A DNA stretch of 64,000 nt. It comes from Corynebacterium matruchotii. Lineage in GTDB: Bacteria; Actinomycetota; Actinomycetes; Mycobacteriales; Mycobacteriaceae. The position numbers and the translations under genes are program-made. Shown piece by piece: positions 24,666 through 58,228 of this stretch. The stretch spans positions 2,728,001 to 2,792,000 of the forward strand of contig NZ_CP050134.2 in the NCBI RefSeq assembly GCF_011612265.2, written 5' to 3'. The notes under the pieces were generated by a model, which was given only the letters and a program-made list of their open reading frames with translations, did not search any database and had not been told where the DNA came from. Numbering within the stretch: position 1 is the first letter of the stretch; the number at the start of each line of letters is the position of its first letter.

Positions 24666-25496
24666 TTACGATGCCGCACGTCGCCCTAACCCCGCGATCC
24701 TTCGGCGCACTTCCGGCGGTGGGGGTGTGTGGCGTTCGGGTTCCACCGCCGGCACGATTGGGGGTGGCCCATCGTGTGCGCACCGGATGACCAGGCTGTT
24801 TCCGTTGGTGTCTTCGGTTTGGGCCATGCCGCGGTCGTCGCAGTGTGGGCACGCCGCAATGCTCGCTTTACGACGCTCAGCCTCCCGGTTTTCCCACTCC
24901 ACCACCAAGGCTTCGGCTCTTTCCCGCTCGGCCCGGCATGCGTGGCATGCCGGCACGTAGCCGTTTGGTGGGATGTGCGCATGGTCGGGGCAGCGGGCCG
25001 CTGCGGGGTTGGGCGGGGGATCGGCGGTGACCTGTCCCCCTCCTCTCTTATTCTCTTCTATTACTTCTTCTCTTACGCGAGGGACGTCATCGTGGACATT
25101 GTGGTGGACATCCTGAGGTGGGCTGTTTTGTGGTTTTGCTGGTTTTCGCTGTTCAGGCCGGTTTTGGGCTCGTGATCGCTGTTTTGATTCCCGCCATTTT
25201 CTGCGCCGTTCTTCCACCTCTTCTCGGGACAAATTGTGTTCAAACCAGTGACAAAAGATGTACACTTTGGTTCCATTTTGTTCGGATTCTGCCCATACAT
25301 TGTTCTTGATGAGTGTCTTAATTTGTCGCACGGTGCCGCCAAGATGGCGGACGATTTTGGCGGGGATGACCCCGTCGGTGAGGTGTCGTTTGCACCAGGT
25401 GCCGCAGGTGACCCAGAGGCCGCGGGCGGACATATTGACTTCGAAGAATTCGGGACTGTCGTAGAAATTGACGTCGACCGGAAAATAGATGGACAT
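24666..25496 (-). CDS. phage/plasmid-type replication-associated protein
   Basis: 276 residues. The N-terminal 90 residues (VDVNFYDSPEFFEVNMSARGLWVTCGTWCKRHLTDGVIPAKIVRHLGG then VYIFCHWFEHNLSREEVEERR) match the winged-helix start of actinophage proteins found in replication modules. After a basic, Gln/Pro-rich linker come two Cys-x2-Cys pairs (CPDHAHIP with CHACRAERE; CPHCDDRG), possible zinc sites. No other phage structural or integrase gene is near. It diverges from an XRE regulator gene, the arrangement of a phage control region, so this looks like a phage or integrated-plasmid remnant. GAGGAG precedes ATG. Confidence 0.7.
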   Translation of the reverse strand: MSIYFPVDVNFYDSPEFFEVNMSARGLWVTCGTWCKRHLTDGVIPAKIVRHLGGTVRQIKTLIKNNVWAESEQNGTKVYIFCHWFEHNLSREEVEERRRKWRESKQRSRAQNRPEQRKPAKPQNSPPQDVHHNVHDDVPRVREEVIEENKRGGGQVTADPPPNPAAARCPDHAHIPPNGYVPACHACRAERERAEALVVEWENREAERRKASIAACPHCDDRGMAQTEDTNGNSLVIRCAHDGPPPIVPAVEPERHTPPPPEVRRRIAGLGRRAAS

Positions 25497-25664
25497 GTGG
25501 GCTCCTCATCGTTGCCAGAGGCGGTTGCTGCATCATATTTGCAGTTAAAAGTGTTATTTACGATACGTTCCTATATAATCACATACTAATTAGATTCTCG
25601 TGACTGTGCCATAACGGGTGTGAGTGCTCTGGGACTAGTGCTGTCATGCGGTAGAAATTAGGGT

Positions 25665-26174
25665 ATGACTGAACCGGTATTTATAAGTGAAAATCCTGAA
25701 TCATTTGGTGTTGCAATTAAGCGGTTACGGGAAGCACAAGGATGGACACGAGCAGATTTCTTACGGCAACTAGGAAAAACCGGCTACTACATGCACGCAA
25801 CCACATTAAAAAGAATCGAGGAAGGCGAGCAGATAGCAAAGGTTCATGAGGCAGTTATCATTTCCCGATTATTCGGTGTGACTGTTGAAGAGATGGGTCC
25901 TGTAGGAATGGATGAGGAAAAGCAGCTGCTTGCTTATCTCAAACATTCAAATACGCTATTCGCGGATATTGGGGCGAGGTTTACTGAGATAGTGAGTTCT
26001 TGGCTACAGGAACGACAGACATTGCAACAACATGTAGAAAGGGCTAATGAGTTGGGATTAGCCGAGAGTAATGAAGATCTATCTACTGCTCATCAATTAT
26101 TACTTAAATTTGGCACATTTGAAGCTATTCAAAAAGATGTTCTAAATAGGCTTAAAGAAAAAGAGAACAGGTGA
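25665..26174 (+). CDS. XRE-type DNA-binding protein, copy 1
   Basis: 169 residues. An N-terminal HTH_3 domain (about 14-75: IKRLREAQGWTRADFLRQLG, then HATTLKRIEEGEQIAKVHEAVIISRLFGVTVEEM) is followed by a helical region probably used for dimerisation (WLQERQTLQQHVERANELG). It diverges from the phage-type gene and is followed 44 bases later by a paralogue. Likely a repressor of its own region. More AT-rich than copy 2. No ribosome binding site is seen before ATG. Confidence 0.8.
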   Translation: MTEPVFISENPESFGVAIKRLREAQGWTRADFLRQLGKTGYYMHATTLKRIEEGEQIAKVHEAVIISRLFGVTVEEMGPVGMDEEKQLLAYLKHSNTLFADIGARFTEIVSSWLQERQTLQQHVERANELGLAESNEDLSTAHQLLLKFGTFEAIQKDVLNRLKEKENR

Positions 26175-26218
26175 GACGCTCAAAATGCTGGCTTGGTTTT
26201 TCCGGTAAAAATTGAGGT

Positions 26219-26725
26219 ATGAACAATACTTCATGGGTCGACCACTCCGAGTTATTCGGCGATACAGTCCGGCAAATGCGTGAAGCTCGCGGGTGGACCC
26301 GGGCTGATTTGCTGCGTGAATTAGACAAAATCGGCTACTGCATGCACGCCACAGTGTTGGCGCGGATTGAAAAAGGCGACCGAATCGCTAGAGTCGCCGA
26401 AGCCCTCGCAATCGCACAATTATTCGGAACAACTGTTGAGGAAATGAACTCCGTCGGCATGAGCGACAAGACCTGGGCAATCATCCAGCTCAATCGCACA
26501 AATGCCCTGTTCGCCGATACCGGAACCCGGCTTTCCGAAATAATTGAGCATTGGTTAGAAGAGCGCCAAACGTTACGGCGTCGCATAGAAGCAGTAGAAG
26601 GATTCGGGGTGACCGAGGAAGACGACGACCTGTCCACCGCCTACCAGCTGCTTGCCGAATTCGGCACGCTCGACGCCATCCAAAAGTACGTCGTAACCAA
26701 GCGTAAAAGAGAAAGCGCAGGCTAG
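26219..26725 (+). CDS. XRE-type DNA-binding protein, copy 2
   Basis: 168 residues, collinear with copy 1: QMREARGWTRADLLRELDKIGYCMHATVLARIEKGDRIARVAEALAIAQLFGTTVEEM and a C-terminal WLEERQTLRRRIEAVEGFG. The helix-turn-helix recognition region differs little (HATTLKRIEEG against HATVLARIEKG), so the two may bind similar sites. Its higher GC suggests an older residence or a different donor. The stop overlaps the convergent nei gene by 4 bases. Confidence 0.8.
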   Translation: MNNTSWVDHSELFGDTVRQMREARGWTRADLLRELDKIGYCMHATVLARIEKGDRIARVAEALAIAQLFGTTVEEMNSVGMSDKTWAIIQLNRTNALFADTGTRLSEIIEHWLEERQTLRRRIEAVEGFGVTEEDDDLSTAYQLLAEFGTLDAIQKYVVTKRKRESAG

Positions 26726-27528
26726 TCACCTTTTTGGCAGGTGGGGCACCAGAAAAGATTCCGCCCTTCCATCACCTGCTCGTTGATAGGTGTGCCGCAT
26801 ATATAGCATTTCTGACCGGCACGCCTATACACATATACCTCCCCGCCATGGTCGTCGACACGCGGCGGGCGATTCATTGCCTCGGGCGTGTGTTCGGGTC
26901 GCACGGTGTCGATGCGCCCCGCCTTGACCCCCTCGGCCATGAGCTGCACCAGATCAGCCCAAATCGCGTCGAAATCCGCATCCTTACCGCTGCTAAACGG
27001 GTCAATCCCCAGCCGAAATAGCGTCTCAGCACGGTAAATATTGCCCACGCCAGGAAACAACGACTGATCCATAAGCAGCGACGCAATACTCCGGTTCGAC
27101 TTATTGACCTTCTCTTTAATGGGCTTCGGGTCCGCATCGGCCCGCAGCGGATCCGCCCCCAGCTTATCGACGGCCACCGCCTTCTCCTCCGCCGTAATCA
27201 GCCGACACCACTGTGGCCCCCGCAGGTTTGCAGCAATAGTATTGGTGGCCATGTGCAGCCGAATCTGCCCCTTGGTTTCCGCAGGGTCCTCGAAATGCAA
27301 CGAACCGATGAGCCCCAAATGTATATAGATAATGCGCTCCGGTTGGGAAACATCAAACTCGATAAACAGATGTTTCCCATAGGCATCCGACTCCAGGTAT
27401 GGCTGACCGTCCAGGGTTCGGGCCTGGGCATCAAATCTGCCCTGCGGCGAGGTGACTATTGGGCTGGTGTCCGTGAATTCACGATTGAGATGTTGGGCAA
27501 GACGATGAATGACGTGGCCTTCAGGCAT
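26722..27528 (-). CDS. Fpg/Nei family DNA glycosylase (Nei2-like)
   Basis: Base-excision repair enzyme removing oxidised pyrimidines, with AP-lyase activity. 268 residues from MPEGHVIHRLA, placing the catalytic Pro at position 2 and Glu at 3. YGKHLFIEF holds the conserved Lys, SLLMDQSLFPGVGNIYRAETLFRLGIDP is the H2TH region, and the C-terminal zinc finger is CYICGTPINEQ...FWCPTCQ (Cys-x2-Cys...Cys-x2-Cys). The frame is open to 27549 but Pro2 must be next to the start, so 27528 is the start. It abuts hairpin array A upstream. Confidence 0.92.
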   Translation of the reverse strand: MPEGHVIHRLAQHLNREFTDTSPIVTSPQGRFDAQARTLDGQPYLESDAYGKHLFIEFDVSQPERIIYIHLGLIGSLHFEDPAETKGQIRLHMATNTIAANLRGPQWCRLITAEEKAVAVDKLGADPLRADADPKPIKEKVNKSNRSIASLLMDQSLFPGVGNIYRAETLFRLGIDPFSSGKDADFDAIWADLVQLMAEGVKAGRIDTVRPEHTPEAMNRPPRVDDHGGEVYVYRRAGQKCYICGTPINEQVMEGRNLFWCPTCQKGD

Positions 27529-27570
27529 AGGTGTGTAGTCTAGTCCCATTCCCCGTCCAAAGCATGTCTA

Positions 27571-28756
27571 CTAGTGGAGCCGCGTTGCTTTCTCATGCTG
27601 CAGGGAGATCCTCGGGGCCGGCCCCAGCACCTTAGCGGCCGCAAACTCCAGCTCAGCACTTGTGCGGCACCAAGCTTGCCTGTAGCTGTTCTTCTAAGCT
27701 GCGAAACCCTCCTGTGGCAAGCTTGGGGGCTTACGTTTCGACAGAAACGCAGCTTAGAACAATTACTAACAGTACTGCTTTCGTGTATCCACGAGGCTGC
27801 ATGAATGCTAAGCGGGGTTTCCACCTGAAACTGATGCCTTTGGGTGCTCCTTGAACTGGAAACCCCGCTTATCAGAAGTGCTGAGCTAGACTTCGGATTC
27901 CCTCCCCATGCTTCTCTTGTTGTTACGTATATCTGCTACCCTGAACTCAAGCTTAGTACTGGTGCAGCTGGCCTTGTAGCGCAATCTCTAAGCTGTAAAA
28001 CCCTCCCGATTGAGCTTGGGCGCCTTGGGTTTTGGCGGAAGTGGAGCTTAGAACATGCACTACCCGTTTCTCCCTGGGGCTGCAAGAGTTCTAAGCGGGG
28101 TTTCTCCCAATGGGCTGGCGCGCTCCAGGCGAAACACAGGACCTAAACCAGAAACCCCGCTTAGATAATATGCAGCCCTACTACTTCACGCTGCCCAAAT
28201 TCAAGCTCAGCATCCGTGCAGCCGACTATGTAGCACTACGCCTAAGCTGTAAAACCCTCCCAGCTGAGCTTGGCCGTCTTGGGTTTTGCCAGAAATGCAG
28301 CTTAGAACGCTTACTACTCGTGTTTTCTCGTGGCTGCAATTGTTCTAAGCGGGGTTTCTGGCTGAAACTGGTACTCGTAGGTGGCCCCGAAACCAGAAAC
28401 CCCGTTTAGCAGAAGTGCTGAGCTTGACTTTGGGTTTTTGCCTGTTGCTACTCCTGCTGGTATGCACACCTGCTACCCGGAACTACAGCTCAGCACTAGT
28501 GCAGCCAATGCCGTAGCACAATATCTAAGCTGCAAAACCCTCCCAGAGACGCTTCAAAAGCACCACGTTTTGACAGAAACGCAGCTTAGAACACCTGCTA
28601 TCCGCGTCGCCCCACCACAGCCTGGAGTTGCAAGAGTTCTAAGCGGGATTTCTCCCAATAGGCTGGCGCGCCCCATCCGAAACAAGGCGCCTAAACCGGA
28701 AACCCCGCTTAGATAATATGCAGCCCTACTACTTCACGGGTGCTAAGCGGGGTTTC
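27571..28756. repeat. hairpin array A: about four cycles of three alternating long hairpins
   Basis: A 1.2-kb non-coding array with a period of about 254-294 bases. Each cycle has three hairpins. H1: CTAAGCTGcaAAACCC ... GGGTTTT ... GCAGCTTAG, at 27694-27757, 27988-28051, 28242-28305 and 28525-28589. H2: CTAAGCGGGGTTTC ... GAAACCCCGCTTAG, at 27808-27871, 28091-28164, 28345-28409 and 28639-28712, plus a solitary left arm at 28743-28756. H3: AGTGCTGAGCT ... AGCTCAGCACT, at 27877-27960 and 28414-28497, with degenerate or one-armed copies near 27571-27660 and 28203-28213. Loops are about 40-60 bases and less conserved. Reading frames through the array are interrupted and shift between cycles, so it is not protein-coding. 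Confidence 0.9.
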
Positions 28757-29309
28757 TGTCGTGGGCAGTGCCGTTGGGCGGATCCTATAGCAGATTCCCT
28801 GCTCAGGAAGCATGTAGCATTGTGATATGGCCGTGTCAGCCTCCACATATACAAGGCATATCTGGCACATTTGGTACATCTGGGGCGTTCGGCATGTGGC
28901 AAATATGCGGTCGCGGTGGGCGCAGGGGATGGGGTTTGCGTGCGGGAGGGCGTCGTCAAGCAAGGAGGGAAGGAGGGGGAGGGCGGGTACCCCAATAAAC
29001 TTCCTGTTCAGAATGGGTTATGGGGGTGCTGCGGGGGTGTGGCGCGAATTGGGGAATGCCCTCGCACCGTGCTCGTATAAACCATGACTTATGGATGGCA
29101 TGTCATCGTGGGGGCAAGAAAAAGTAATAAATACCAGTATTATGCCTACCCCTAGGTGGGTCGCAGTGGGTGTTTCGAACAGCCACTATTAAACTTAGGC
29201 AGTAACTGCATAGCTTAAGAACTCACAGAATCGGAGTTGATATAGAAACATCCGGTTCGCGTTGCGTGCTTGACCACAAGCAGTTGCTTTGTCGAACAAG
29301 GAGAAATTC
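28757..29309. other. intergenic region upstream of the Pel-like locus
   Basis: About 550 bases with no supported gene. A purine-rich stretch lies near 28960-28985. The promoter of the pelG-like gene must be in the last 150 bases. I saw no match to a cyclic-di-GMP riboswitch core. Confidence 0.5.
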
Positions 29310-30677
29310 GTGTCCAGTAAGCGCCCCACAACCCGCAGCTTGCCGCTAATCGTGTATTTGGTCATTGCAGTGGCCGCATTGATCGGTACCGGCGCCGGGT
29401 GGGCTTGGTATGTCACCTACCCACCTGAGCGAATGGTGGCACTCATTGTCGGTATCGTTGCCGTTGTAGTGGTGGCGGCGGCGCTTTTAGCGAATCGGCG
29501 TGCCTGGCAGATCATCATGAATCTAGCCCCCACGGCCTTACTGCTTGCAATATTGCCCTTTGTGACCAAGCAACTTGGTGCGCAAACCACCATTGTGGTG
29601 CTTGTGGCCATCACCACGCCATGGTTGGTTGGTACCGCAATGCTGCCGGCGTTTCGGCCGGTGGCTAGGCTGTCCGGCACGGATAAACAGGCCAAGCAGG
29701 ATTTTGTTCGGGAATTCTGCCGCGGCTGGCTGCTCATGCTGGTCTTCACGCTCATCCCGGTGGGGATTTTTTCGCTTCTCCTTCTTATCTGTGGTTGGTC
29801 CGCCGGCAACGTTGGCCTCTATATTGCCGGCGTCATGAGTAATGTGTTTTTCCTGCATTGCCTCATACCCACCATGGAGATCCGCAAGGAAGCGGTCGTG
29901 GCCGGCTGGGTTGCCTACGGGGCGGTGTTCTTCTTCCTCCCCGGATTCTGGTACCTTGCCCCTCTCGCCGGCGCGGTGCTGCAAATCCCCTTCCTTGGGA
30001 AGGGCCTGCTTGGTTTATTCCGGGCTCCCGCCATGGATCTGCAAAGTATGCTGGCCAAGGCTGTGTATGGGGTGCTCATTGGTGGGGTGCTGTGGATGGA
30101 TAAATTCTTGGTTCTGGTGCTCACGCCGAACGAGGAAAACCTTTGGCTGGCATACACCGCCATTATTCCCGTCACGGTGACGCTCGCGGTGTGTAACGCC
30201 ACGAAGTTCCCGGACTTGCAGCACAGTTTTGACCAGCTAGTGGATGATGTGGCCCACCGGCCGTTGTCGCAATTGGGGAGCGATATTTCAAATTCTCGGG
30301 GGAACCTGGCCTATTTGGTGGCTAGCACTATTGCGGTCAGCACGTCTGCAAGTTTAGGCTCGTTGCTCATGGGTGGTGTTTTTGGCATTCAACATGGGTA
30401 CACCAGTTTGTTGCTGTTCTTGTTGCCGGCCACATTGGTGGCGGCATATGTCAGTATGGCGCAGTTAAGTCAGGTGCGGCGGCACGTGAACGCGGCGGTT
30501 GGTGCTGGCGGCTATTTGGTATTGGTGACGGTGGCGTTCGCATTCCTGTCACCATTGGTGGGTTTGGTTATGGCGTTGTTGGTTTCGTCGGTTGTGGCTA
30601 TGTTAGCGGCGGTCCGAGTGGAGCGCAGCGTGGTTGATGCACCATATGAACTCTTCTGGCAAAAGGCGGTGGCATGA
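29310..30677 (+). CDS. PelG-like polysaccharide exporter (MATE/MOP-type membrane protein)
   Basis: 455 residues, 12 or more membrane helices. The start is the GTG at 29310, 6 bases after AAGGAG; the open frame begins slightly earlier. The segment GVLIGGVLWMDKFLVLVL...LAYTAIIPVTVTLAV resembles the PelG core (WADKW...LAYLSIIP) and the protein is followed, with a 4-base overlap, by a PelF-like glycosyltransferase, the same pairing as in pelFG. In Pel systems PelG carries the polymer across the inner membrane with PelF, PelD and PelE. PelD, PelE and the outer-membrane parts are absent here, as expected for at least the last in this cell type. Polymer identity is unknown. Confidence 0.72.
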   Translation: MSSKRPTTRSLPLIVYLVIAVAALIGTGAGWAWYVTYPPERMVALIVGIVAVVVVAAALLANRRAWQIIMNLAPTALLLAILPFVTKQLGAQTTIVVLVAITTPWLVGTAMLPAFRPVARLSGTDKQAKQDFVREFCRGWLLMLVFTLIPVGIFSLLLLICGWSAGNVGLYIAGVMSNVFFLHCLIPTMEIRKEAVVAGWVAYGAVFFFLPGFWYLAPLAGAVLQIPFLGKGLLGLFRAPAMDLQSMLAKAVYGVLIGGVLWMDKFLVLVLTPNEENLWLAYTAIIPVTVTLAVCNATKFPDLQHSFDQLVDDVAHRPLSQLGSDISNSRGNLAYLVASTIAVSTSASLGSLLMGGVFGIQHGYTSLLLFLLPATLVAAYVSMAQLSQVRRHVNAAVGAGGYLVLVTVAFAFLSPLVGLVMALLVSSVVAMLAAVRVERSVVDAPYELFWQKAVA

Positions 30678-33600
30678 TGCCCAATAATGAAAACGATAAA
30701 GACACATCGAGCTTGCCGACGGACGTATCGCGGGATGCGTCAAAACTCAATCATCCCAAGCCGGCAAGCCGACCAACCACACCTAAATCGGCTATTAAAG
30801 GCAGTGGGCAGCTGCGGAAGGAACCCTTATTCCCCTCCCGCACCGACATGCCCACCCCTCCCAAGGTGGCCGATGAGCCGGAGAAGCCTCGCACTCCGCT
30901 GTTCCCATCGTGGCATTCGGAAAAGTCGGAAAAATCCGATCCCGAGCCGCCACGTACCCCCCTATTTCCGTCATGGCATAACGAGCGGCCCCCCACACGT
31001 CCCATGGAGACGGCCAAGCCATCCGAACCTTTGTTCCCGTCCCGATCATCGTCAACAAATCCGAATCGGCATTTGGCAAATGACTCTGACGTAGAGAAGC
31101 CCAAGACTCCGCTGTTCCCATCGTCAAATTCGAAACCACGATCATCTGGTGACGACCCCGACATCCCGGACAAGCCGCTGTTCCCGTCTACCGGCGGTTT
31201 TCGGCAGTCGAAGACCCAGTCGCACGATCCGATATCCATTTTCAGTGGGTTCACGATGATGGATAATCCCACACCGCCACCGGTACAGAAACCCAAGCCA
31301 CCGAAGCCGACGTCCCGACCGAAACCCGAAACGTCGAAGCAGGATCGACCCGCATCTATTTTCGATGATTTCAAGTTCATTAAGCCGAAGTCCGAACCGG
31401 ATTCCGAGCCGGAGCCTGCCCCAAAGGCTGAAGCTCCTCAGGTGCAGCCCGAGGCTCCCGTGGCGCCGAAGCCCCCCAAGGCGGCTGAGACTCCCACTGT
31501 GGCGGAGCCGGAGCCCACCGTGGACGTCACACCGGAACCCGAGCCGGCACCTGCAACACCCGAGCAATCGGCCCCACCGGTATCCAAGACCCCGGCGTCC
31601 CCACCGCAGGCGGCATCGACACCAATCGTGCCAACCGCACCATCTACGCCGGACGTTTCGGACGTGGACGTGCCTGATGCACCTGAAACATCGGATGCGC
31701 CGGACACGTTGGAAGTGTCCGATACATCGGATTCCGCAACCATCAAGCCGGAATTACCCAAACACGAGCAGGCATCATCCATGCTCGGCAGCTTTGATTT
31801 CGTCAAAGCCCCCGAACCGGAATCCCGGCCTACGGAACCTGACGAGTCACCAGTGCCAATTGTGTCGGCGGAACCGCCGGCGGCCGAAGCACCTGAGTCT
31901 GAAGCAACGGGAGTAACTGAAGCTGCCGAACCAACCGAGGCGGTGGAAGTGCCGGAAGACCCGGAAACCACCGGCATTGGGGAAGAACTGCCCACATCAA
32001 GCATATGGACTGATGGTTTCAGCTCACTGAAACCCATTACCCCCTTGCCGCCCACCATCACTAATTTCGATGATGACGATGACTTCGACTACACCCCACT
32101 CTTTAACGAGTTGGGGGCCCAAGTGGCGGCGTCGAAGGCCGAGTCGGCGGCGAAACCTGAACCCGAGCCGGAACCTGAACCCGAACCTGAGCCGGAAGAG
32201 CCGGAGGCATCCGACGAGTTGGGGGTCATAAAGCCGCTCATCATTGGACACCAGGCGGATCTGAAACCATCCACTAACCCGTTTTCCGCAATAGTGCGGC
32301 AACCCCTGGCGTCGCCGGAGCCCGAGCCCGAAGCCATACAGGACCCCACATTGGGGGTAGCAGGGGTCTCAGAATCAGTGACACAGGTAACACCAACTGT
32401 GCCAACCTCGCCAACTGCGTCGACTGTGCCGGAGGCACCGGAAGTTCCGGCAGCCCCAGAATCTTCGACGCCACCGGAGGCAGCGCCGGCGCCCGCCAGG
32501 ATCCCTACGGCTGTCACCACCCCCGCGCCCGCCGTCCCTGAGGCTCCGCCGGTAAAGCCGTCGAAGGCGCGGAAACCTGTGGACGTCGACAAGCTCAAAG
32601 CCGAATTGAGCGAGTGGGGCGCTTGGGCGTCCATGCCACAGCTGGGGTCAAAGAAACCGCAGGACAAGAAGAAATCCAAGGTGGGCGGGCCATCATTGGT
32701 GTACCGCTTTCCAGGCGACAGTCAGGTGTTACAGGAGGTCGATATTGCGGTTGTGATGGAATCCACATATCCGTTTACGGCGGGTGATACGGCGGTATCG
32801 GTGCAGAACATTATTCGGCACAATCCGGACCTCACATTCGGCGTTATCCACATCGCAGATAATTCGAACGCACCTGCGAAAAGCATGTTTGAGCTTCCCG
32901 CAAATGTGAAGTGGGTTGACGTGATTTATCTCGAATCGACGGAAGTCTCGGAAAAATTTTCCGGCCTAGTATCGTCACCGGTGACCGATGAGCAAGTCCG
33001 AGAAGTGCTTGACGCTATTGAATCATCGGTGACCGGCAACCATGAACCGATGCATGCGTTGTACGAGAACGCCATCAATCCGCAAACCCGCACATGGTCG
33101 GCGTGGGGCGCGCTTGGGCATCGGGAATTCATGAACGCCGCAATTAAAGCCGCAGGTAAAGCCGATGATATTAGCCTCAGTCAGCTCTTCGACCTCGCCT
33201 ATAATTTCTTCTTGCGGATCTATACGCTACTCGATCGGGTGCTGCCTACTGCGCGGGTGTATCACGCGCATTCCAGTGGCAATGCCGGCCTCGTGGCCGC
33301 GGCAGGTGCGGTGCAGAACAAGGGCAAATTCTTCCTCACCGAGCACAACCTGAATATTCGTGACTCCATTAACAAACTATTGAGCCGGGATCTCAACCGG
33401 CGGGTTACTAGTGAAGCACCACTAAAGCTAACCACAGATACGTTCGAACGCTTCTGGACCCAGTGGTGGCTCGAACTTGGGGCATTAAACTATGCAGAAG
33501 CAGAGTTGATTACTTACCTGTATCCGCAGGCTGTTACCGATGCCCAAGAGCTAGGCGGCGCCCAGGAGAAAGCGGAAGTTCTTCCTGACGGTATTGAGTG

Positions 33601-34294
33601 GGAAGACCTGGAGATTCCCCGCATTTGGCGGCAGCAGGCAGTGCCGAAGCTGGAGCGCAAAATCAGTTGGAAACTCGCAGTTGTGGGAGATTTCCAGCCG
33701 AGCAAGGGCATCATCGAGCTCATTGATGCGGTCAAATTGATGGTGGATGGTGGGAAAACCGATGTGCGCGTCGACCTGCTCAAGCCCGCCGACGGCAGCA
33801 CCACCGACGAACCGGAATATTATTCGCGTTGTGTTGCTCACATTAAGCAATTGTCGGTAGAAAACTATGTGCGGTTGCGTGATGTGAAAGACGCCCGCGA
33901 CGTGATGCACGAATACGATGCACTGGTAGTGCCCAGTTTCCAGGAGAGCCAACCCCATGCGGCACTCGTGGCCATGACCATGGGTGTGCCAATTATTGGC
34001 TCCAGTGTGGGCGGCATGAACGCTCTAGTCACCGAAGAATTATCGGATGCGCAGCATAAGAAGATTGGTGCAAGTGGGGAATTAGTTCCCCCCGGTGATT
34101 CAGCGGCTCTTGCTACACTTATGGCAAAGCTTACGCAAAGCCCAGAACTTTATCGTGCATGGCATGAAAATGCCCTCGCTCGCATCAAGGCTTTTTACCT
34201 TTTGCCACAGGTTATGCGTCGCTATAACGCGATCTATCGCAATCTTGGGGCAGGGAAACACAAAGTAATTGGTGGCATGGCGATGGTGCCGTGA
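30674..34294 (+). CDS. PelF-like glycosyltransferase with a ~670-residue disordered N-terminal extension
   Basis: 1206 residues. From about 675 on it is PelF-like: EVDIAVVMESTYPFTAGDTAVSVQNII...NPDLTFGVIHI (DUF3492), YHAHSSGNAGLVAAAG, KFFLTEHNLNIRDS, then a GT4 domain (KLAVVGDFQPSKGIIELIDAVK, ENYVRLRDVKDARDVMHEYDALVVPSFQESQP, MGVPIIGSSVGGMNALV). The donor-site EX7E motif is altered: ESQPHAALV has the first Glu but Val where the second should be. Residues 1-670 are Pro/Glu/Ala/Ser-rich and predicted disordered, with six copies of a PLFPS motif (about 50-175) and four looser SIFxxFxFxKP-like copies. ATGA overlap with the pelG-like gene shows coupling. No signal peptide; cytosolic. Confidence 0.78.
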   Translation: MMPNNENDKDTSSLPTDVSRDASKLNHPKPASRPTTPKSAIKGSGQLRKEPLFPSRTDMPTPPKVADEPEKPRTPLFPSWHSEKSEKSDPEPPRTPLFPSWHNERPPTRPMETAKPSEPLFPSRSSSTNPNRHLANDSDVEKPKTPLFPSSNSKPRSSGDDPDIPDKPLFPSTGGFRQSKTQSHDPISIFSGFTMMDNPTPPPVQKPKPPKPTSRPKPETSKQDRPASIFDDFKFIKPKSEPDSEPEPAPKAEAPQVQPEAPVAPKPPKAAETPTVAEPEPTVDVTPEPEPAPATPEQSAPPVSKTPASPPQAASTPIVPTAPSTPDVSDVDVPDAPETSDAPDTLEVSDTSDSATIKPELPKHEQASSMLGSFDFVKAPEPESRPTEPDESPVPIVSAEPPAAEAPESEATGVTEAAEPTEAVEVPEDPETTGIGEELPTSSIWTDGFSSLKPITPLPPTITNFDDDDDFDYTPLFNELGAQVAASKAESAAKPEPEPEPEPEPEPEEPEASDELGVIKPLIIGHQADLKPSTNPFSAIVRQPLASPEPEPEAIQDPTLGVAGVSESVTQVTPTVPTSPTASTVPEAPEVPAAPESSTPPEAAPAPARIPTAVTTPAPAVPEAPPVKPSKARKPVDVDKLKAELSEWGAWASMPQLGSKKPQDKKKSKVGGPSLVYRFPGDSQVLQEVDIAVVMESTYPFTAGDTAVSVQNIIRHNPDLTFGVIHIADNSNAPAKSMFELPANVKWVDVIYLESTEVSEKFSGLVSSPVTDEQVREVLDAIESSVTGNHEPMHALYENAINPQTRTWSAWGALGHREFMNAAIKAAGKADDISLSQLFDLAYNFFLRIYTLLDRVLPTARVYHAHSSGNAGLVAAAGAVQNKGKFFLTEHNLNIRDSINKLLSRDLNRRVTSEAPLKLTTDTFERFWTQWWLELGALNYAEAELITYLYPQAVTDAQELGGAQEKAEVLPDGIEWEDLEIPRIWRQQAVPKLERKISWKLAVVGDFQPSKGIIELIDAVKLMVDGGKTDVRVDLLKPADGSTTDEPEYYSRCVAHIKQLSVENYVRLRDVKDARDVMHEYDALVVPSFQESQPHAALVAMTMGVPIIGSSVGGMNALVTEELSDAQHKKIGASGELVPPGDSAALATLMAKLTQSPELYRAWHENALARIKAFYLLPQVMRRYNAIYRNLGAGKHKVIGGMAMVP

Positions 34295-34472
34295 TGATGC
34301 TGCGGTTGTACATGGTGCCGCGGAAACGTTATTGATTGTGCAATGGCTTTGTTGAAAACAATGCTGGGGCACAATCATGACGGAATTCTGATGTATCGTG
34401 TGCTGTTCGTGGCGGTTCTGGTGGCTTATGGCAGTGAGCGTATAACCACATTCGTACCAGCTACTAGAGGAG

Positions 34473-35732
34473 GTGGCTGACATCTCTACGCCTGAAGATT
34501 CACCCATTAATTCCACATCAGAAGACCCGTTCGAAGTCGCATCTACTGAGGCAGACGCTGCGCCTGCTGATGCCGCATCAGCCGAGGTTGGGGGCACCGA
34601 ATCGGTGAACTCCGCCGAGGCTCCCGAAGCCGCTGCGGCCCCCAAGGTCAACCTTGCTGAAGCCATTGATGCTGTGCCGTTCCCCGAGTTCAGCCGTGCC
34701 GCATCGGCGACCGGCGAGTCAGAGACAACCCCGGCGGAATCCGGGGAACCATTAAAACCGCATCCCCGGCTTTCCTGGGTTCGGCATGGGCATCCGATAT
34801 CGTCGTGGCAGTTGAAAAAGGCCGCAGGCAGGTACCATGTTGCGATTCTGAACCCGTGGGAGCTTCGCGCCGCCCACAATCTTAAAAAGCACAACCCGCA
34901 CATGAAGGTGCTGGCCTATAAGAATCTCAGCTCGGTGCCCACCGCCGCGGCCGAAGAAAAAGGCCCGATTTACACCTCCGGCATACATCCAGTCATGGCC
35001 CAGAACCTGGGCACGAGCGCCCGGCTGACCCGGCGCGTTTCGCACAAGGGTCGTGACCACCAGCGGGTGTGGGATCTCACCTACCAGCAGGCTTGGTTGG
35101 GTGGTGTTGCCGCGGAGATGGTCGATAGCCCGTTCGACGGGGTGGTGGTTGATTCTGATCTTGATGAAAGGTTTTTCCGCCACGAATTGGACAGAGAACA
35201 AATGTATGAGGGCATAGAAAAGCTGTTCAATCGGGCTGGTGACCGGTTGACTTCCATGGGGAAGATAGTTGTGCCGAATTTCCCGGCTCGGGATGGTAAT
35301 TGGCGGGGTCAGGGCCGCTTCGGTGGTGTGTTCGAATCCAATTGGTTGGGTTGGGGCGGCGCCGGCGATGGGTGGTTGAGCGCCGATGAGTGCGTGGAGC
35401 AGGCCCGTCGTTTGAATGAGGCCGAGGGGCAGATTATTCTCCGGGCCCCAGGCGCGAACCGTAACTATATTCGCCATTTGGGGTTGGCGTTGGCGGCGGC
35501 GTGGGTGTTTTTCCCGCAGCGTGAGGTATCGGTTGCGGCGACGGGCGCCGATGATTTCAATGGTGTGCCGTTGGTTCCCGAGGTTGATCTTGGTGATCCC
35601 ACCTCGGATGTGATTCGTGACGGGGATTTGTTCCGCCGCGAGTTTACCGGTGGTGTCGCCAGGATAAATTTGAGTGAAACCACATCTATTGATGGGTTGC
35701 GTCCGCATTCCGGCAGCGTGGAGGCTTCGTAG
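34473..35732 (+). CDS. GHL15-like putative glycoside hydrolase
   Basis: 419 residues without a signal peptide. The first 95 are acidic, Ala/Ser/Glu-rich and probably disordered, like the N-terminus of the preceding protein. Then follows a TIM-barrel-like domain: [85 protein letters not shown] and [25 protein letters not shown]. This fits the putative hydrolase group GHL15/spherulin-4-like; Asp residues in VVVDSDLD are candidate catalytic residues. The annotated GTG (34473) lies inside the AGAGGAGG ribosome binding site; ATC at 34482 is 8 bases after it and may be the real start. Probably part of the Pel-like locus (178-base gap). Confidence 0.7.
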
Positions 35733-48326: not shown

Positions 48327-48998
48327 ATGAGAACTATAAAAGTAGCAATGATTGATGACCACCCATCAACTATTTTGGGGGTAAAAACCGCGGTCAACCA
48401 GGCTAACGACATGGAATTCTATAATGGGTACGCCACCCTCCCAGAATTTTATGAAAACGTGTACGGACCCTCCCGGAAGGCAGTGATCTACCCGGTGGAC
48501 GTGGTACTCCTGGATTTACGACTCGCGGACTCCTCAAACCCTTACGACAACACCATTGCTCTTATCAAGCTTGGCTTCAAGGTTCTCATCTACTCCTCCC
48601 TGGAATCCCCCTTCCGATTCCGAAGCGTCCTCGGTGCCGGGGCGCACGGGCTCTTTGAAAAAAGCCGATCCATGGAAGAATTATTATCCGCCATTCGACT
48701 CGTGGCTGCTGGGAATACCTTCTCCGACGCCGAATGGGCATCCATCATCGACAGCAACTATAAGCTACTGAACGTAAAATTATCGGATCAGCAAAAAACC
48801 GTACTGGAACTCATGGCCGCCGGGGAAACCGACAAAATGATCGCCAAAAAAATGGGCATTTCCCCCAACACGGTTCGGGATTATATTAATCGAATCCGCG
48901 ACAGCTTCGCCAAGGCGGGCAGCACTCCCGAGGGGAGAGTTCTCCTGGTTCGGGAGGGGATTAAAAGCGGCATCCTTCGGTGTCCTACGGATCCCTAA
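48327..48998 (+). CDS. LuxR-type response regulator 2
   Basis: 223 residues, clear paralogue of regulator 1. Acidic pair Asp10-Asp11, phospho-acceptor Asp63 in VVLLDLRLAD, Lys in FEKSRS, and a LuxR helix-turn-helix (LSDQQKTVLELMAAGETDKMIAKKMGISPNTVRDYINRIRDSF). GGTGAG lies 3 bases before ATG, a weak ribosome binding site. The recognition helix SPNTVRDY differs from RQSTVNDY of regulator 1. The stop overlaps the stop of kinase 1 on the other strand by 4 bases. Confidence 0.9.
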   Translation: MRTIKVAMIDDHPSTILGVKTAVNQANDMEFYNGYATLPEFYENVYGPSRKAVIYPVDVVLLDLRLADSSNPYDNTIALIKLGFKVLIYSSLESPFRFRSVLGAGAHGLFEKSRSMEELLSAIRLVAAGNTFSDAEWASIIDSNYKLLNVKLSDQQKTVLELMAAGETDKMIAKKMGISPNTVRDYINRIRDSFAKAGSTPEGRVLLVREGIKSGILRCPTDP

Positions 48999-51145
48999 TT
49001 CCAGCGCAGCGAGGCATATCGGTCCCGCCCCGCGGGCAGCAGCCGCAATGTTAACGTGTGGGGGTTCTTCCCCAAGGCGTCGGTGGTATTGGCGATGATT
49101 TTGCTGTGCTCTTCGGGGTCGGCGCAGGTGGGGCTTCGGTCGTCGATAAGCGTGACTCGGCTGCCGGCCGCCCTGGCCCGCCACACCGCCGCCGTGAGCT
49201 CCGGGACGTCCAGGAGCGGGGATCGGATGGCGTCGCGTAGCCGCAGTTCCATGAGCTTTGCCACCATGGGGTCGTCGACAAGCTGGAGCAGCGAGTGCAG
49301 CCATTTCGTCATCTCTGAGGTGTATCGTTGCAGGTCCGGCTCCAAATATTCGTTGCTGTCCACCCGCTGGAGCGTAGGCAGCGACTTGACCACCCAATTG
49401 AGCTGGAGCGGCACAATCGTCGCAGGAATAAGCAGCGGTATGCACGCAATAATCGAGCTTGCCGACGCCAAAAGGTCCAGCCTCAGCCACGACTCGGCGA
49501 CATACGTTATTACCGCAAACCCCACCCACATCGCCCACGCCACCCCCGGTCGCAGCCGTAACGCCAAATACATTGCTAGCACCACCGAATAGGAGACAAA
49601 CCAGCCATAGCGTTGGAGCTGCGGCGGCTGCGGATAATGCGAAAACTGTCCAATCGTCATGAGGGCACTCACGCACACAATCAAAATAATGGTGTTCCGC
49701 CACGGTAACCGCAACTGGGACCGGTCCGTGAGCGACCACAATGCGCCCGCCACCAGCCCCATGCTGATAATCAGCACATGCCACTGCCCCCTATGGTCGT
49801 AGGGCATCACATCGAAAGTGAAGATAGCAAGCGCATACGCCGCCACCCAGGGCCGAAACAGCCGATCAAACCCCAGCTTCTGCACCTGGTATAGAAGCAT
49901 GTTCTGCTGCTCTTTCGACCCCTCAGGCGCCGCCACGGTATCCGTCACATTCCAAGTAATCTCATATCGGGTGCCCTGTTCCGGGGCGGACATGAGACTC
50001 ACGGATACCCCATTGTAGATTTGTGGGCGCTTGAGCATGGTAATCTTCACACCCGCATGATTATGCGAGACCTTATCGATGTGAAAACCCGGGCCCGAAT
50101 CCCGAAACACAATATTCATCACGGTGCTATTCCAACTAATGGTGAGCTCCCGCGTGGCTTGTGGGGCGTGCTCCACCGAATTATGGGACGCCTCAGCCAC
50201 CGCATCAATAAGAGCCATGGCGGTCTTAAACGGCAACGGCATGGTGAGATCGGCAACAGCCTGAATGGTGATCTTGGTAGATTCGGTCACGGAATCCCGC
50301 AGCATAGTAATAAAATTCCCCACCGACATGGTGTCCGCCTGCGTCACATCCATGATATTGATGCGCGGCACATCGGTAACAGGCGTCAGTCCCGCCGCAG
50401 CGGAATTCAAAGTGGGCAAAACCTTGTCGTGGATACGGCTAGTAAAATAGCTCTCCAGCTCGGAAAACGATTGTGACCGCAAGAATGTCATATTGGCCTG
50501 AGCACTCTGAAAAATCGCTGCATCAGTCTGCCGACTCGTGTGGATTCCGCTATACACCATGAACAACACCGGCCCGGAAATCAGGGTGGAATACAGGGCT
50601 GCGTCAAAATCACTCATGTGCCAAAACGGCAGCTGATTATCGTGCAATGTCACAACCATCGAGGTGGTCATCAGCATAGTGACAAACCACCACCAGTGCG
50701 GAAATAGCATCATGAGTAAACACGCTGGGATCCCCACGAAATCCCCCAACAGCATGTCCCCGATCGCCGAATGCCCATAATGGGCCAATTGCGCTATCTG
50801 AATCATCGGGAACTGGGCATACGCCAGGGCAGAACCCGGCAGGGCCAGAAGGTACAGCACCCGCTTATTCATCATGACGGCAATTACCAAGAGCACCAGC
50901 GACCCGGCAAACATGACCATGGCAACCATGATCCACCCGCCGTAACTGTCATTGGTGGAAAGGCATGAATAAATTAAGCTCGACTTCATCACCAAATATC
51001 CGCAGTAAGAAACCAAACAGATAATAGTGATGTAGCGGATCAGCTTTAACTCGGTGATTCGTGGTTGTTGAGGAATAAAGAAATCGGAGTAATGGTGACT
51101 TCGCGGTGCCGGGCGTGCGAGCTGAACCAAATCCGAATCCTTCAT
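48995..51145 (-). CDS. sensor kinase 1, two membrane blocks around a central HATPase
   Basis: 716 residues from MKDSDLVQLARPAPR. This start aligns with the starts of kinases 2 and 3 and has a -10 hexamer 7 bases upstream, although the frame is open to 51238. Order of parts: membrane block 1 (about 35-200); short dimerisation helix with phospho-acceptor His239 in RIHDKVLPTLN; HATPase_c (about 310-400) with Asn322 in ASHNSVEHA and DSGPGF (349-354); membrane block 2 (about 430-610); soluble tail of about 110 residues (RDAIRSPLLDVPELT, ending LLPAGRDRYASL). The kinase core belongs to the HisKA_3/NarL-partner group, matching the LuxR-type regulators next door. Confidence 0.8.
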   Translation of the reverse strand: MKDSDLVQLARPAPRSHHYSDFFIPQQPRITELKLIRYITIICLVSYCGYLVMKSSLIYSCLSTNDSYGGWIMVAMVMFAGSLVLLVIAVMMNKRVLYLLALPGSALAYAQFPMIQIAQLAHYGHSAIGDMLLGDFVGIPACLLMMLFPHWWWFVTMLMTTSMVVTLHDNQLPFWHMSDFDAALYSTLISGPVLFMVYSGIHTSRQTDAAIFQSAQANMTFLRSQSFSELESYFTSRIHDKVLPTLNSAAAGLTPVTDVPRINIMDVTQADTMSVGNFITMLRDSVTESTKITIQAVADLTMPLPFKTAMALIDAVAEASHNSVEHAPQATRELTISWNSTVMNIVFRDSGPGFHIDKVSHNHAGVKITMLKRPQIYNGVSVSLMSAPEQGTRYEITWNVTDTVAAPEGSKEQQNMLLYQVQKLGFDRLFRPWVAAYALAIFTFDVMPYDHRGQWHVLIISMGLVAGALWSLTDRSQLRLPWRNTIILIVCVSALMTIGQFSHYPQPPQLQRYGWFVSYSVVLAMYLALRLRPGVAWAMWVGFAVITYVAESWLRLDLLASASSIIACIPLLIPATIVPLQLNWVVKSLPTLQRVDSNEYLEPDLQRYTSEMTKWLHSLLQLVDDPMVAKLMELRLRDAIRSPLLDVPELTAAVWRARAAGSRVTLIDDRSPTCADPEEHSKIIANTTDALGKNPHTLTLRLLPAGRDRYASLRWN

Positions 51146-51484
51146 TCTTGAGATTCTATTGGTTTTCTCCAAGCTAGGACCCCTAATCAGGGCCCCAATC
51201 TTCTGGGGCAGCAGCGGGGAACCGAGACGACGTGCCATTTCGGTTGTACGGCAACCTTAAACCCATAATATCCAACAAGGATATCTTAAGGTGGAGGCCC
51301 ATAAAAATATGGGCTGTTACCTTGAGAAGATTAGAGCTATGCTTGTAACATGGTTGCGGTTTTGCGCAATAGTCTATGGATTGTGCAAAGAAAATCTTAA
51401 TTCTATTAAGGTTTTTATGTGGCCAATAGCACTGCTTTCACTCAGGCGGTTGTCGGCATTATTTTTGGAAAGGATAACGAAATC
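51146..51484. promoter_or_regulatory. divergent control region between kinase 1 and the anchored protein
   Basis: Holds the kinase 1 -10 hexamer (51153-51158), an inverted repeat ATATCC-AACAA-GGATAT (51268-51284) and a hairpin GCCCATA-AAAA-TATGGGC (51297-51314) enclosed by AAGGT (51288-51292) and ACCTT (51319-51323). The second structure lies in the leader of the anchored-protein gene. An ATATCC...GGATAT pair also occurs upstream of kinase 2. Confidence 0.5.
51153..51158 (-). promoter_or_regulatory. -10 hexamer of kinase 1
   Basis: TAGAAT on the minus strand, 7 bases before ATG 51145, the same layout as kinases 2 and 3. Confidence 0.55.
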
Positions 51485-52234
51485 ATGCCTGTTCATTTTG
51501 ATTGGCGGAGCTTGCAACAATACGCTCTGCCGGCGTTGGGGATTGTATCTCTGCTGGTGTCAGCGATCATTGCGGTTGCCGGTGGGTTGGGTCTGGGTGG
51601 CTCCTCCTCGGAGAACGACAACACGGATGCCAATGTCATTTTCAAGGTTGTGGACCAGCACGGGATGCCGCGTGTTTGTTTGCTGATTCCAACAACAAGT
51701 CCACATGATGATAAAGCCAGGTATAACAATCTCGATGGAACCTATCCCATCAAAGCAAAACCTGGCCAAACGGTGACAGCTATATTCAGCTGTAATCAGG
51801 CCAAAGACGGTGTCTTAGACACCGTGGAAGTATCCGCCGTCGCCCCAGAGACCGGTGTGCTAGAACAAAAAGTAGTGGTCCCCAGCCCGAATGCGCCATC
51901 GGCAAATACGCAATCATCATTACTCGATGACAGTGGCAAGGATGTCAACGTCGTATTCAAAGTCGTGGACCAGCACGGACTTCCGCGCTTTTGCCACGTT
52001 AAGCCAACCGGTGCTCTTCACACCGATAACATAGTGTACACCTCACAGCTGGGAACGTACGGCGTGAAAGTAGAACCAGGTTCCACGGTGACCCGGATTT
52101 TTGATTGCAAACCGTCGGAGCCAGGCACCCAGGTTGTTGAGGCCAGTGCCATCGCACCGCAAGGTGATGGAAAAATCCTGCAAGAAGTAGTGATCCCGGA
52201 TCCGAACTCCCCATCGGCCTCATTCAGCAGCTAG
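51485..52234 (+). CDS. membrane-anchored protein with two homologous extracytoplasmic domains
   Basis: 249 residues from ATG 51485, which has GGAAAGG about 10 bases upstream; the frame starts at GTG 51419. One N-terminal membrane helix (about 13-36, YALPALGIVSLLVSAIIAVAG) then two repeats of about 95 residues (48-142 and 153-245). Each begins with VIFKVVDQHGMPRVC or VVFKVVDQHGLPRFC, continues with a GTYxxKxxPGxTVT segment and ends VVxPxPNxPSA. Each repeat has two cysteines 38 residues apart (65/103, 170/208), likely a disulfide. The pattern resembles small Ig-like (carboxypeptidase-regulatory-like) beta folds. Placed among the sensor kinases, it may be their ligand or accessory sensor; no family recognised. 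Confidence 0.7.
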   Translation: MPVHFDWRSLQQYALPALGIVSLLVSAIIAVAGGLGLGGSSSENDNTDANVIFKVVDQHGMPRVCLLIPTTSPHDDKARYNNLDGTYPIKAKPGQTVTAIFSCNQAKDGVLDTVEVSAVAPETGVLEQKVVVPSPNAPSANTQSSLLDDSGKDVNVVFKVVDQHGLPRFCHVKPTGALHTDNIVYTSQLGTYGVKVEPGSTVTRIFDCKPSEPGTQVVEASAIAPQGDGKILQEVVIPDPNSPSASFSS

Positions 52235-52240
52235 GTGCCG

Positions 52241-54403: not shown

Positions 54404-54645
54404 GATCTACGATTGTATACCTTTAAAATGCGACTACAGGTGCGTAATATCCCCAAGTTATTGGATATGTAACCCGATTCATAACGCCGCCATGGTTCAC
54501 CAAGGATGATCGCCAGAGCGGGGGTCATTTAGGTGACCATGAAAACCAGGGCACTGTGGGGAAGCTATATAGCTACTATGATTACACTGAAAATTATAGC
54601 CCTTCCAGTACATATGCCCCAGGAGATACCATGCCTCCCAGCGGA
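54404..54645. promoter_or_regulatory. control region of kinase 2
   Basis: Contains the -10 hexamer at 54412-54417 and an inverted pair ATATCC (54447-54452) / GGATAT (54463-54468) at a distance that would cover the -35 region or just upstream. No gene in the remaining bases before the end of kinase 3. Confidence 0.45.
54412..54417 (-). promoter_or_regulatory. -10 hexamer of kinase 2
   Basis: TACAAT on the minus strand, preceded by TA as in kinase 3 (TATACAATC), 8 bases before ATG 54403. Confidence 0.55.
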
Positions 54646-56935: not shown

Positions 56936-58041
56936 GAAACCCCGCTTGGGGTTTTGCAGTCTTTCTGCTTCACCATTGCTAAGCGGGGTTTCTGGTTGGG
57001 GGCTCGGATGAAAAGTGTTGGGAAAGCGCCGGTTTGCTAGGAAACCCCGCTTAGAATTAGTGCAGCTCTGGGTAAAGTTCTGGCAGCAGATGTTCTAAGC
57101 TGCGTTTCTCCCGAAATTTGGGCTTTCCAAGATGCTTTGGGAGAGTTTTGCAGCTTAGAGAAAGCGCTATAGGCGGTGCTGCATTAGTGCTGAGCTGCAG
57201 TTCCGGGTAGCAGGTGTGCATACCGGCAGGAGTAGCAATCGGCAGAAACCCAAAGTCCAGCTCAGCACTTCTGCTAAGCGGGGTTTCTGGTTTTAGGATC
57301 ACCCAAAGGCATCGGTTTCAGTTGGAAACCCCGCTTAGAACTCTTGCAGCCACAGAAAAATACAAGTAGTAGGTGTTCTAAGCTGCGTTTCTGCCGAAAC
57401 TCGCGGTTTCTGAAGGAACTCAGGAGAGTTTTGCAGCTTAGAGGAGACGCTATAGGCGGTGCTGCATTAGTGCTGAGCTGTAGTTTGGGGCAGCAGTTGT
57501 GCATACCAGCAGGAGGGGTGATGGGAGGAACTCTGAAGTCAAGCTCAGCACATCTTCTAAGCGGGGTTTTCGGTTGGGTACGGTTCGATTTGCCTGGGGT
57601 GGTGTCGGCTTGTTGGGAGAAACCCCGCTTAGAACTGTTGCAGCCTCAAGCTGTCGTGGAACAGCGCAGATAGCAGGTGTTCTAAGCTCCACTTCTCCCG
57701 AAACTTGGGCTTTCCAAGATGCCCTGGAAGGGTTTTGCAGCTTAGACATTATGCTACGGAATTGGCTGCACTAGTGCTGAGCCTGAGTTTGAGGTAGCAG
57801 GTGTGCATACCAGCAAGAAAGTCGGCGGACAGAAATCTAAAGTCCAGCTCAGCACTTCCGCTAAGCATGGTTTCCGGTTTTGGGACCACCCACAAGTACT
57901 AGTTTCAGACGGAAACCAAGCTTAGAACATCTGCTGCCAGAACCTTACCCAGGGCTGCAATAACTCTAAGCGAGGTTTCTGGTTGGGTGCGGTTCGATTC
58001 GTCTGGGTTGGTGTTGACCTATTGGGAGAAACCCCGCTTAG
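56936..58041. repeat. hairpin array B: three cycles, inverted relative to array A
   Basis: Same three hairpins as array A, in reverse-complement order. H2: 56979-57054, 57274-57338, 57557-57632, 57861-57925 and 57966-58041, with a solitary right arm at 56936-56947. H1 (reading CTAAGCTGCGTTTC ... GTTTTGCAGCTTAG): 57095-57158, 57378-57441 and 57682-57745. H3: 57186-57269, 57469-57551 and 57773-57856. The period is about 283-304 bases. The H2 copy at 57861-57925 has TGG in both arms where others have GGG, with one added mismatch. Frames through it are broken; not protein-coding. Confidence 0.9.
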
Positions 58042-58228
58042 AACATATGCTGCCTAGGTTGGGTTGATGCTGGTGGGAGTTTGCCGGGTTGCGGGGAACA
58101 TGTTTCGACTTTGAGCAGTAAATAAGGTATGTTTGACGGGTTGCTGACGCAACGACCCTCCTGCCACAACCAATACGGGTTGCGGCCGAAACTACGATAT
58201 TGAAAGACCATAGGAGGTGATGAGGTCC
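58042..58228 (+). promoter_or_regulatory. rpsF promoter and leader with possible hairpins
   Basis: Between array B and rpsF. The leader has GTTGC-TGAC-GCAAC (58140-58153) and CAACC (58167-58171) with GGTTG (58178-58182), followed by CGGCCGAAAC. Many rpsF leaders carry a structure bound by S6:S18 with an exposed CCG; this could be one, but I cannot fold or align it, and rpsR is not in the operon. Confidence 0.3.

Follow-up and report, generated by a model that had tools for sequence, protein, structure and literature searches.

Bacterial interspersed repeats have mostly been explained as selfish doublets or as RNA hairpins, and helically phased operator and iteron arrays are familiar from the lambda operators, plasmid partition sites and Rep iterons. 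In the sections of the sources used here, the BIMEs formed by REP sequences are described as intergenic, present in >100 copies, alternating in orientation and regularly spaced, with a proposed role in chromosome organisation (PMC2817692), and the REPINs of Pseudomonas fluorescens SBW25 as inverted doublets around a variable middle, with preferred distances, compensatory changes and some tandem clusters (PMC3116915). Within the genus Corynebacterium, the part of the report on C. diphtheriae used here lists Cod-1, Cod-3 and Cod-5 as stem-loop repeat families, with Cod-1 and Cod-5 marked I in its table, which we take to mean intergenic (PMC2267715). A Corynebacterium family of the kind described below was not found in the sections of the literature covered, which included PMC2817692, PMC3116915, PMC2267715 and PMC1590033.

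The subject of this study is an array of approximately 1.2 kb (array A), one of about 38 found in the 2,866,540-bp single-contig genome of Corynebacterium matruchotii. It lies in a stretch of 64 kb that was analysed as a whole (the window; positions 2728001-2792000 of the chromosome, contig C1). The original prediction for this locus considered it unlike REP layouts, which was too strong, as BIMEs and REPINs too, according to the sections used of PMC2817692 and PMC3116915, consist of inverted elements that alternate at set spacings. What is new here is a helical phasing of 10.50 bp, confinement around oriC, a regional spelling of the repeats and a distribution limited to 2 of 242 genomes of the genus.

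Layout of array A and structure of the repeat unit

Array A had been described as three hairpins, H1, H2 and H3, repeated in the cycle H3-H1-H2 over window positions 27571-28756. An arm scan of the window located the arms at the places, in the order and with the spacing claimed, and the cycle holds, with direct-repeat families recurring at 254-294 bp (family D4 at 294, 254 and 284, family D6 at 283, 254, 294 and then 104). The bulk of the interval belongs to the array, but its 5′ end (27571-27640) does so only weakly. The H3 elements have four right arms (family D8: 27644, 27944, 28198 and 28481) and, with one mismatch allowed, two left arms (27877 and 28414), so that two of the four are full hairpins and the other two are half-sites only. 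The elements of the array are listed in Table 1, together with neighbouring features and the array consensus sequences of the chromosome.

Table 1. Elements of array A and its surroundings (window positions), and array consensus sequences by distance from oriC
Feature	Position	Strand	Basis
H3 right half-site AGCTCAGCACT, opens array A, left partner not found	27644..27668	.	arm scan
H1 unit 1, 100 bp	27676..27775	.	R1 and R2 model matches
H2 unit 1, 101 bp	27790..27890	.	R1 and R2 model matches
H3 arms AGTGCTGAGCT / AGCTTAGTACT, overlapping outer arm of H2 unit 1	27877..27960	.	arms read; models silent
H1 unit 2, 100 bp, weak	27970..28069	.	R1 and R2 model matches
H2 unit 2, 110 bp, about one helical turn longer	28073..28182	.	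R1 and R2 model matches
H3 right half-site without left partner	28198..28222	.	family D8
H1 unit 3, weak	28224..28323	.	23.2 and 13.6 bits; absent from R2 matches
H2 unit 3, 101 bp	28327..28427	.	R1 and R2 model matches
H3 unit, 112 bp	28400..28511 (chromosome 2756400-2756511)	.	R1 match
H1 unit 4, 101 bp	28507..28607	.	R1 and R2 model matches
H2 unit 4, 110 bp	28621..28730	.	R1 and R2 model matches
Closing H2 half-site, no clear partner	28735..28757	.	R2 partial match 28735-28814
GCTTGACGACG, genome-wide 11-mer, 137 bp past the edge of array A	28951..28961	-	sole orientation seen at array edges
Array B, homologous to A, inverted orientation, about 29 kb away	56961..58059	.	model matches and A/B comparison
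Left neighbour of array A, Fpg/Nei-type DNA glycosylase	26722..27549	-	Pfam
Right neighbour of array A, 462-aa membrane protein, no Pfam match	29289..30677	+	precedes DUF3492 and glycosyltransferase-domain gene
Array consensus TGCTGAGCTGGAGTT	-589 to -460 kb from oriC; variants at -545 and -314		
Array consensus TAAGCATGGTTTTC	-194 to -123 kb from oriC; one variant at -163		
Array consensus CTAAGCGGGGTTTC	-6 to +104 kb from oriC; variant at -16		
Array consensus CTAAGCTTGG	+119 kb from oriC		
Array consensus TGGTGGGC	+133, +137 and +368 kb from oriC		
Array consensus YTTAGC/CTAAGC-TTGGGTTC types	+226 to +304 kb from oriC		
Array consensus CTAAGCATGG	+329 kb from oriC		
Array consensus TGCTGAGCTGGAG	+363, +366 kb from oriC		
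Array consensus TGAGCT types	+524, +685 kb from oriC		

From their sequences, H1, H2 and H3 appear to be versions of a single element, an inverted pair of ~27-bp half-sites with the consensus GCWGCA-N4/5-TKCTAAGC-NNGG-KTTYC, followed by a variable middle and then the mirror image. The covariance model R1, built from 20 units of which some came from array A, picks up all four H1 and all four H2 units. Of the two complete H3 units it scores the one at 28400-28511, and the one at 27877 was not reported. The arms had been claimed to be better conserved than the loops, and comparison of arrays A and B bears this out, with 316/379 matching positions in half-sites (83%) versus 478/647 elsewhere (74%); in the alignment logo, information was near background outside the half-site. 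The half-sites have no internal palindrome of their own, the longest perfect stem averaging 3.29 versus 3.24 in shuffled sequences, and only 44 of 326 start with GTAG, the commonest start being GCTG (76). The R-box core of integron attC sites, GTTRRRY/RYYYAAC, was not present in the logo, which shows GCWGCA and CTAAGC blocks.

The surroundings of array A hold several features of their own. On the left, a region of about 2 kb (window 24666-26725) encodes two paralogous XRE regulators and a 276-aa protein with, by eye, a phage- or plasmid-like appearance; the region is likely to be an insertion beside array A, because the syntenic gap of MAG L090 measures only ~13 bp. The two XRE genes were considered as source of a binder of the array, which the distribution of their relatives did not support (E≤1e-10 in only two other genomes of the genus, neither of them the genome G119 discussed below). 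To the right, window 29289-35732 encodes the 462-aa membrane protein, a DUF3492/glycosyltransferase protein and a 419-aa protein, a set that we take to resemble a Pel-type exopolysaccharide locus. Three similar membrane proteins of 719-747 aa, possibly sensor kinases by eye, are encoded at window 48995-56805, and the one beside array B had no Pfam match.

Distribution of the family on the C. matruchotii chromosome

Applied to the whole genome, R1 gave at least 150 matches (1,503 first-pass candidates, of which 150 were scored and all matched). With a broader model, R2, the stretches examined yielded 176 distinct units, some of them overlapping or compound, which fall into 38 clusters; after filtering, a different grouping rule placed 163 units of 85-135 bp in 39 clusters. 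R2 units occur both singly and in runs, and the model matches fall on both strands. By ORF context the arrays are intergenic, in tandem, divergent and convergent settings; a few contain small ORFs that pass a simple coding filter, the coding status of which is doubtful. The neighbours with Pfam matches are ordinary genes, such as those for PEPCK, LeuA, an arabinosyltransferase, GroEL, L7/L12 and PorA, and no family common to the array-flanking genes was seen in the Pfam scan (31/69 flanking proteins). Promoter- and terminator-like sites within the arrays were at chance level. The exact H2 13-mer is present in 31 copies in the genome (18 + 13), all of which are located at 2664-2786 kb.

Helical phasing and alternation of half-sites

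In a scan of periods from 6 to 20 bp on 163 re-anchored units, the spacing of half-sites lying no more than 600 bp apart was best described by a period of 10.50 bp in each of the four orientation classes (pairs: LL 331, RR 332, LR 474, RL 348), and this phase holds within as well as between units. An alignment-free count of CTRAGC/GCTYAG 6-mers in the arrays gave the same 10.50 bp in all four classes (R 0.46-0.58, 310-405 pairs), whereas the 6-mers outside arrays had other best periods, with R at 10.5 of 0.02-0.21 (14-35 pairs). The maximum R among 1000 jittered LL sets of these 6-mers was 0.165. Consecutive L-L distances of half-sites gave R=0.59 (n=122). Reversed sequence is uninformative as a control, because palindromes survive reversal; the controls used were partners slid out of register, jittered positions, shuffled labels and DNA outside the arrays. 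The comb is also visible in the lengths of the 176 units, which were 89 (1), 99-102 (73), 110-112 (69) and 120-122 bp (11), with the remaining 22 being partial, compound or of odd length, and the stretches between units have preferred lengths near 4, 13-14, 24-25, 34-35, 48, 57, 79, 89 and 100 bp.

Tested singly, with a common L-R offset estimated from all the data, 21 of the 34 arrays with two or more units reached nominal p<0.05, among them array A (R=0.74) and array B (R=0.92), and 13 did not, with the arrays at 2664 and 2675 kb not significantly phased (R 0.27 and 0.46); the p-values are too small, as paralogous arrays are not independent. In the second species with the family (genome G119), the L-R period was 10.45 (R 0.60, n=71), and the LL, RR and RL phases were weak (R 0.30, 0.29 and 0.21). 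Neighbouring 6-mers alternate in orientation in 221 of 266 cases (0.831), versus 0.552 after label shuffling (maximum 0.643). The alternation in the unit-based counts (LR 159, RL 118, LL 4, RR 4) follows largely from the definition of a unit as an inverted pair.

These distances bear on the possibility that the arrays are neutral repeats, which slippage and conversion would expand and homogenise without any function, the phase being a legacy of a founder array. Such an origin would fit the restriction to one clade, the poor conservation of positions and the local homogenisation described below, but when the 56 distinct L-L distances are taken alone they still lie on one 10.5-bp comb (R=0.45). 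Spacers this varied on one comb are not the product of duplicating one founder, and we consider the neutral explanation improbable.

Pairing between the arms of a unit

In the 20 aligned units, 86.1% of the cells were paired versus 79.8% after shuffling, and pairing did not exceed 45.9% when the partners were slid out of register. Cells changed on both sides numbered 35, versus 15.9 in shuffles (0/500 as high), a covariation that is not assignable to one strand. No Rfam family was matched in a search of the window. When folded as single-stranded DNA, four hairpins of array A outscored dinucleotide shuffles (z = -2.32 to -5.65). The left and right halves of one unit also match each other better (0.772, inner block) than do halves taken from different units of that array (0.718), an excess equalled in 0/2000 permutations, and with unit ends as anchors the direction was the same (0.715 versus 0.648). 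A model of pure half-sites does not require this within-unit matching, which fits either selection for a hairpin or quasi-palindrome correction by template switching; the latter would also account for local homogenisation.

The arms would stay complementary if a folded strand functions, either as structured RNA or as single-stranded DNA hairpins, and the double-sided changes, the in-register pairing, the within-unit matching and the folding of the four hairpins all speak for such a function. It would give no role, however, to the 10.50-bp phasing of loops and spacers, and full pairing is not required, since the two arms of some units differ: in 9 of 163 units, ≤9 of the 17 inner positions agree, and the array at 2664-2665 kb, read by eye, has units with two unlike arms in both orientations. 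Together with the absence of an Rfam match, the chance level of promoter- and terminator-like sites and the matches on both strands, this makes a folded strand an improbable basis for the arrays. Of the structured RNA in the original prediction the covariation is real, and the RNA itself is not favoured.

Position on the chromosome and regional spelling

The origin region is marked by the DnaA-box repeats at 2,681-2,685 kb and by the parS sites (GTTTCACGTGAAAC) at 2,706-2,715 kb, both assigned by motif. All clusters found are located within 686 kb of oriC, at a median distance of 284 kb versus ~717 kb for random places, a confinement that covers the spellings known to the models among the matches listed, with other spellings possible far from the origin. 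Even at E≤1, there were no R2 matches in a further 24 stretches totalling 476,540 bases, of which 13 (260 kb) are located at 0.56-2.02 Mb and the remainder, likewise free of arrays, on the origin side. A plain inverted-repeat scan likewise detected no arrays in the far samples, where it found a lone 20-bp inverted repeat at 2,018,159; G119 holds an array at the matching place.

The similarity of arrays falls with the distance between them (Mantel r -0.39 and -0.41, 0/5000 permutations) and rises again for pairs >800 kb apart, and the consensus sequences accordingly change by zone (Table 1). In a mirror test of opposite replication arms, r was -0.21 (21/2000 as low) and -0.33 (4/2000). This is only suggestive of spellings that may be roughly mirrored on both arms, and such an order could also come from origin-symmetric inversions.

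Other repeats were noted in the same part of the chromosome. The parS sites form a dense cluster at 2706320-2715584 with GCTTTACGACG 11-mers between some of them, and R2 detected no hairpin arrays in this cluster. Three tandem copies of GCTTTTCGACG are located beside the DnaA-box region (chromosome 2681027-2681059). The 11-mer GCTTKACGACG has 286 copies in the genome versus 7 for a control (one copy lies at window 28951-28961), and occurs in most of 61 genomes of the genus, in tens to 515 copies, being at chance level in >12. It is often found in inverted pairs (for example at chromosome 2127187-2127219), as are the uptake-signal terminators of Neisseria. It lies within 600 bp of the edge at 15 of 76 array sides, always in one orientation relative to the array and never in the other. 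Its pairs were considered as terminal repeats of a transposon and rejected, as the motif is genus-wide and accompanies only these 15 sides.

Occurrence in other genomes and possible mobility

The covariance search of Corynebacterium genomes proposed with the original prediction did find the family, but in only 2 of 242 genomes of the genus, that of C. matruchotii and G119, which is 53% complete (R2, with the best 16 candidates per genome scored under strict filters). Among 41 genomes searched with R1 (24 of the same genus, 16 of the same order and its own), only its own gave a match. G119 has 81 matches on 3 of its 30 contigs, which are, as far as tested, syntenic with 1.88-2.18 Mb of C. matruchotii. 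Out of six comparable gaps between genes, one has units in both genomes (G119 contig C9, 173.4-173.8 kb), three only in G119 and two only in C. matruchotii; in one gap, an array in G119 stands against only a GCTTTACGACG...CGTCGTAAAGC inverted pair here (2127187-2127219). Genes also align in order with the MAG Corynebacterium sp. S30M_Sa_12, at up to 85% protein identity, and the gap holding array A, ~1.75 kb in C. matruchotii, is ~0.55 kb there and has no model matches. Comparison of array A with plasmids and phages (blastn) gave no match, and there were no matches to four hairpin patterns in viral contigs or to one hairpin pattern in GTDB contigs, sets from which its own and near genomes were possibly left out.

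Such differences in presence at syntenic gaps would be expected if the inverted pair were itself a mobile unit moved in trans, as in a REPIN/BIME-like miniature family, whether as a rival explanation or as the mode by which the arrays spread. Further points in its favour are that units occur singly and in runs, that halves match best inside a unit, and that inverted doublets, set spacers and compensatory changes match the REPINs in the sections used of PMC3116915; the phasing would then reflect a transposase that has to synapse a pair of ends separated by only a few turns of DNA. The genome, however, had no match to the transposase family PF01797, for which 5 of 14 named control genomes were positive, and unit edges had no clear target-site duplication, a feature of MITEs (4-8 bp, shifts -4 to +9; no shift gave more than 3 of 163 units, with 0.7 expected for 4 bp). 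Phasing also extends between units, the half-sites have no palindrome of their own, the spelling is regional, and no copies were found in the samples from 0.56-2.02 Mb. We therefore regard a REPIN-like family as an unlikely explanation, though ahead of the neutral and folded-strand ones. The mobile repeat family of the earlier reading is possible as a mode of spread, given the variable presence of arrays, and finds no support in target-site duplications or PF01797.

A possible docking platform for a DNA-binding protein

A third option raised originally, an array of protein-bound chromosomal sites, is supported by the phasing, as the period of 10.50 bp puts the sites on one face of the helix. 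We think it moderately probable that these are phased docking arrays for a DNA-binding protein specific to the clade, a reading that builds on the motif, its inversion and alternation, the phasing, the intergenic location, the regional spellings and the origin-centred confinement. It is favoured because hairpins do not predict 10.50-bp phasing and assembly of a protein on one face of the duplex does. A transposase that acts on closely spaced ends could account for phase within units, though not between them. Side-by-side or looped assembly of a protein on duplex DNA, as at operators and iterons, calls for alternating inverted sites that stay in phase for hundreds of base pairs.

We infer that a protein binds the arrays and assembles along the DNA. 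In each array, inverted ~27-bp half-sites, mostly of alternating orientation and all on one face of the double helix, would together serve as platform for a putative sequence-specific protein of a small Corynebacterium clade. Bound protomers would touch their direct neighbours or meet through short loops of DNA (4-8 helical turns within a unit), and with such contacts spacers could change by whole turns only. This putative protein may perhaps organise or mark origin-proximal territory, and local homogenisation by conversion, template switching or short-range copying may have given each zone its spelling, both of which are guesses from map position. The poor conservation of array positions between the two species counts against docking arrays, being unexpected for an essential architecture. 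More speculative, and in our view rather improbable, is a position-coded scaffold, in which a dedicated protein would polymerise on the phased inverted sites throughout the territory around the origin. The zone spellings, roughly mirrored on the two replication arms, would then work as addresses by which arrays belonging to one zone meet and define a macrodomain. Arrays that are phased, spelled by zone and centred on the origin are a sign, readable in the sequence itself, that a large nucleoprotein assembly may form on a bacterial chromosome, and spacers that obey the helix over 600 bp raise the question which protein this is and whether it defines a chromosomal domain.

Comparison with known repeats and site arrays

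As portrayed in the sections used of PMC2817692, BIMEs share with the C. matruchotii arrays the >100 intergenic copies (here 176 units in 38 clusters), the alternating orientation and the regular spacing. The internal palindrome of each REP is missing from the half-sites, however, a 5′ GTAG tetranucleotide (or similar) is not the rule in them, and the RAYT gene (Y1, PF01797) of REP, BIME and REPIN systems is missing from the genome. We class the arrays as interspersed mosaic repeats but not as members of the REP family, since these three defining features are lacking. Their spacers sit on a 10.5-bp comb; the 49 REPs found in 400 kb of E. coli MG1655 had linkers of 60 and 67-69 (LR) and mostly 29-35 bp (RL), with no evident comb in a sample too small to be decisive (LL 7, RR 5). 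REPINs, as far as the sections used of PMC3116915 describe them, are alike in their inverted doublets, variable middle, preferred distances, compensatory changes and some tandem clusters, and differ in having one or two spacer lengths, versus the comb and regional spellings seen here. The Cod-1, Cod-3 and Cod-5 families are stem-loops of the same genus, set beside these arrays by description only, from the part of PMC2267715 used here.

Operators and iterons differ from the C. matruchotii arrays, which are chromosomal, number in the dozens, consist of inverted pairs and would be bound by a putative protein. What the two have in common is repeated sites on one face of the helix, an arrangement that allows contacts between bound proteins.
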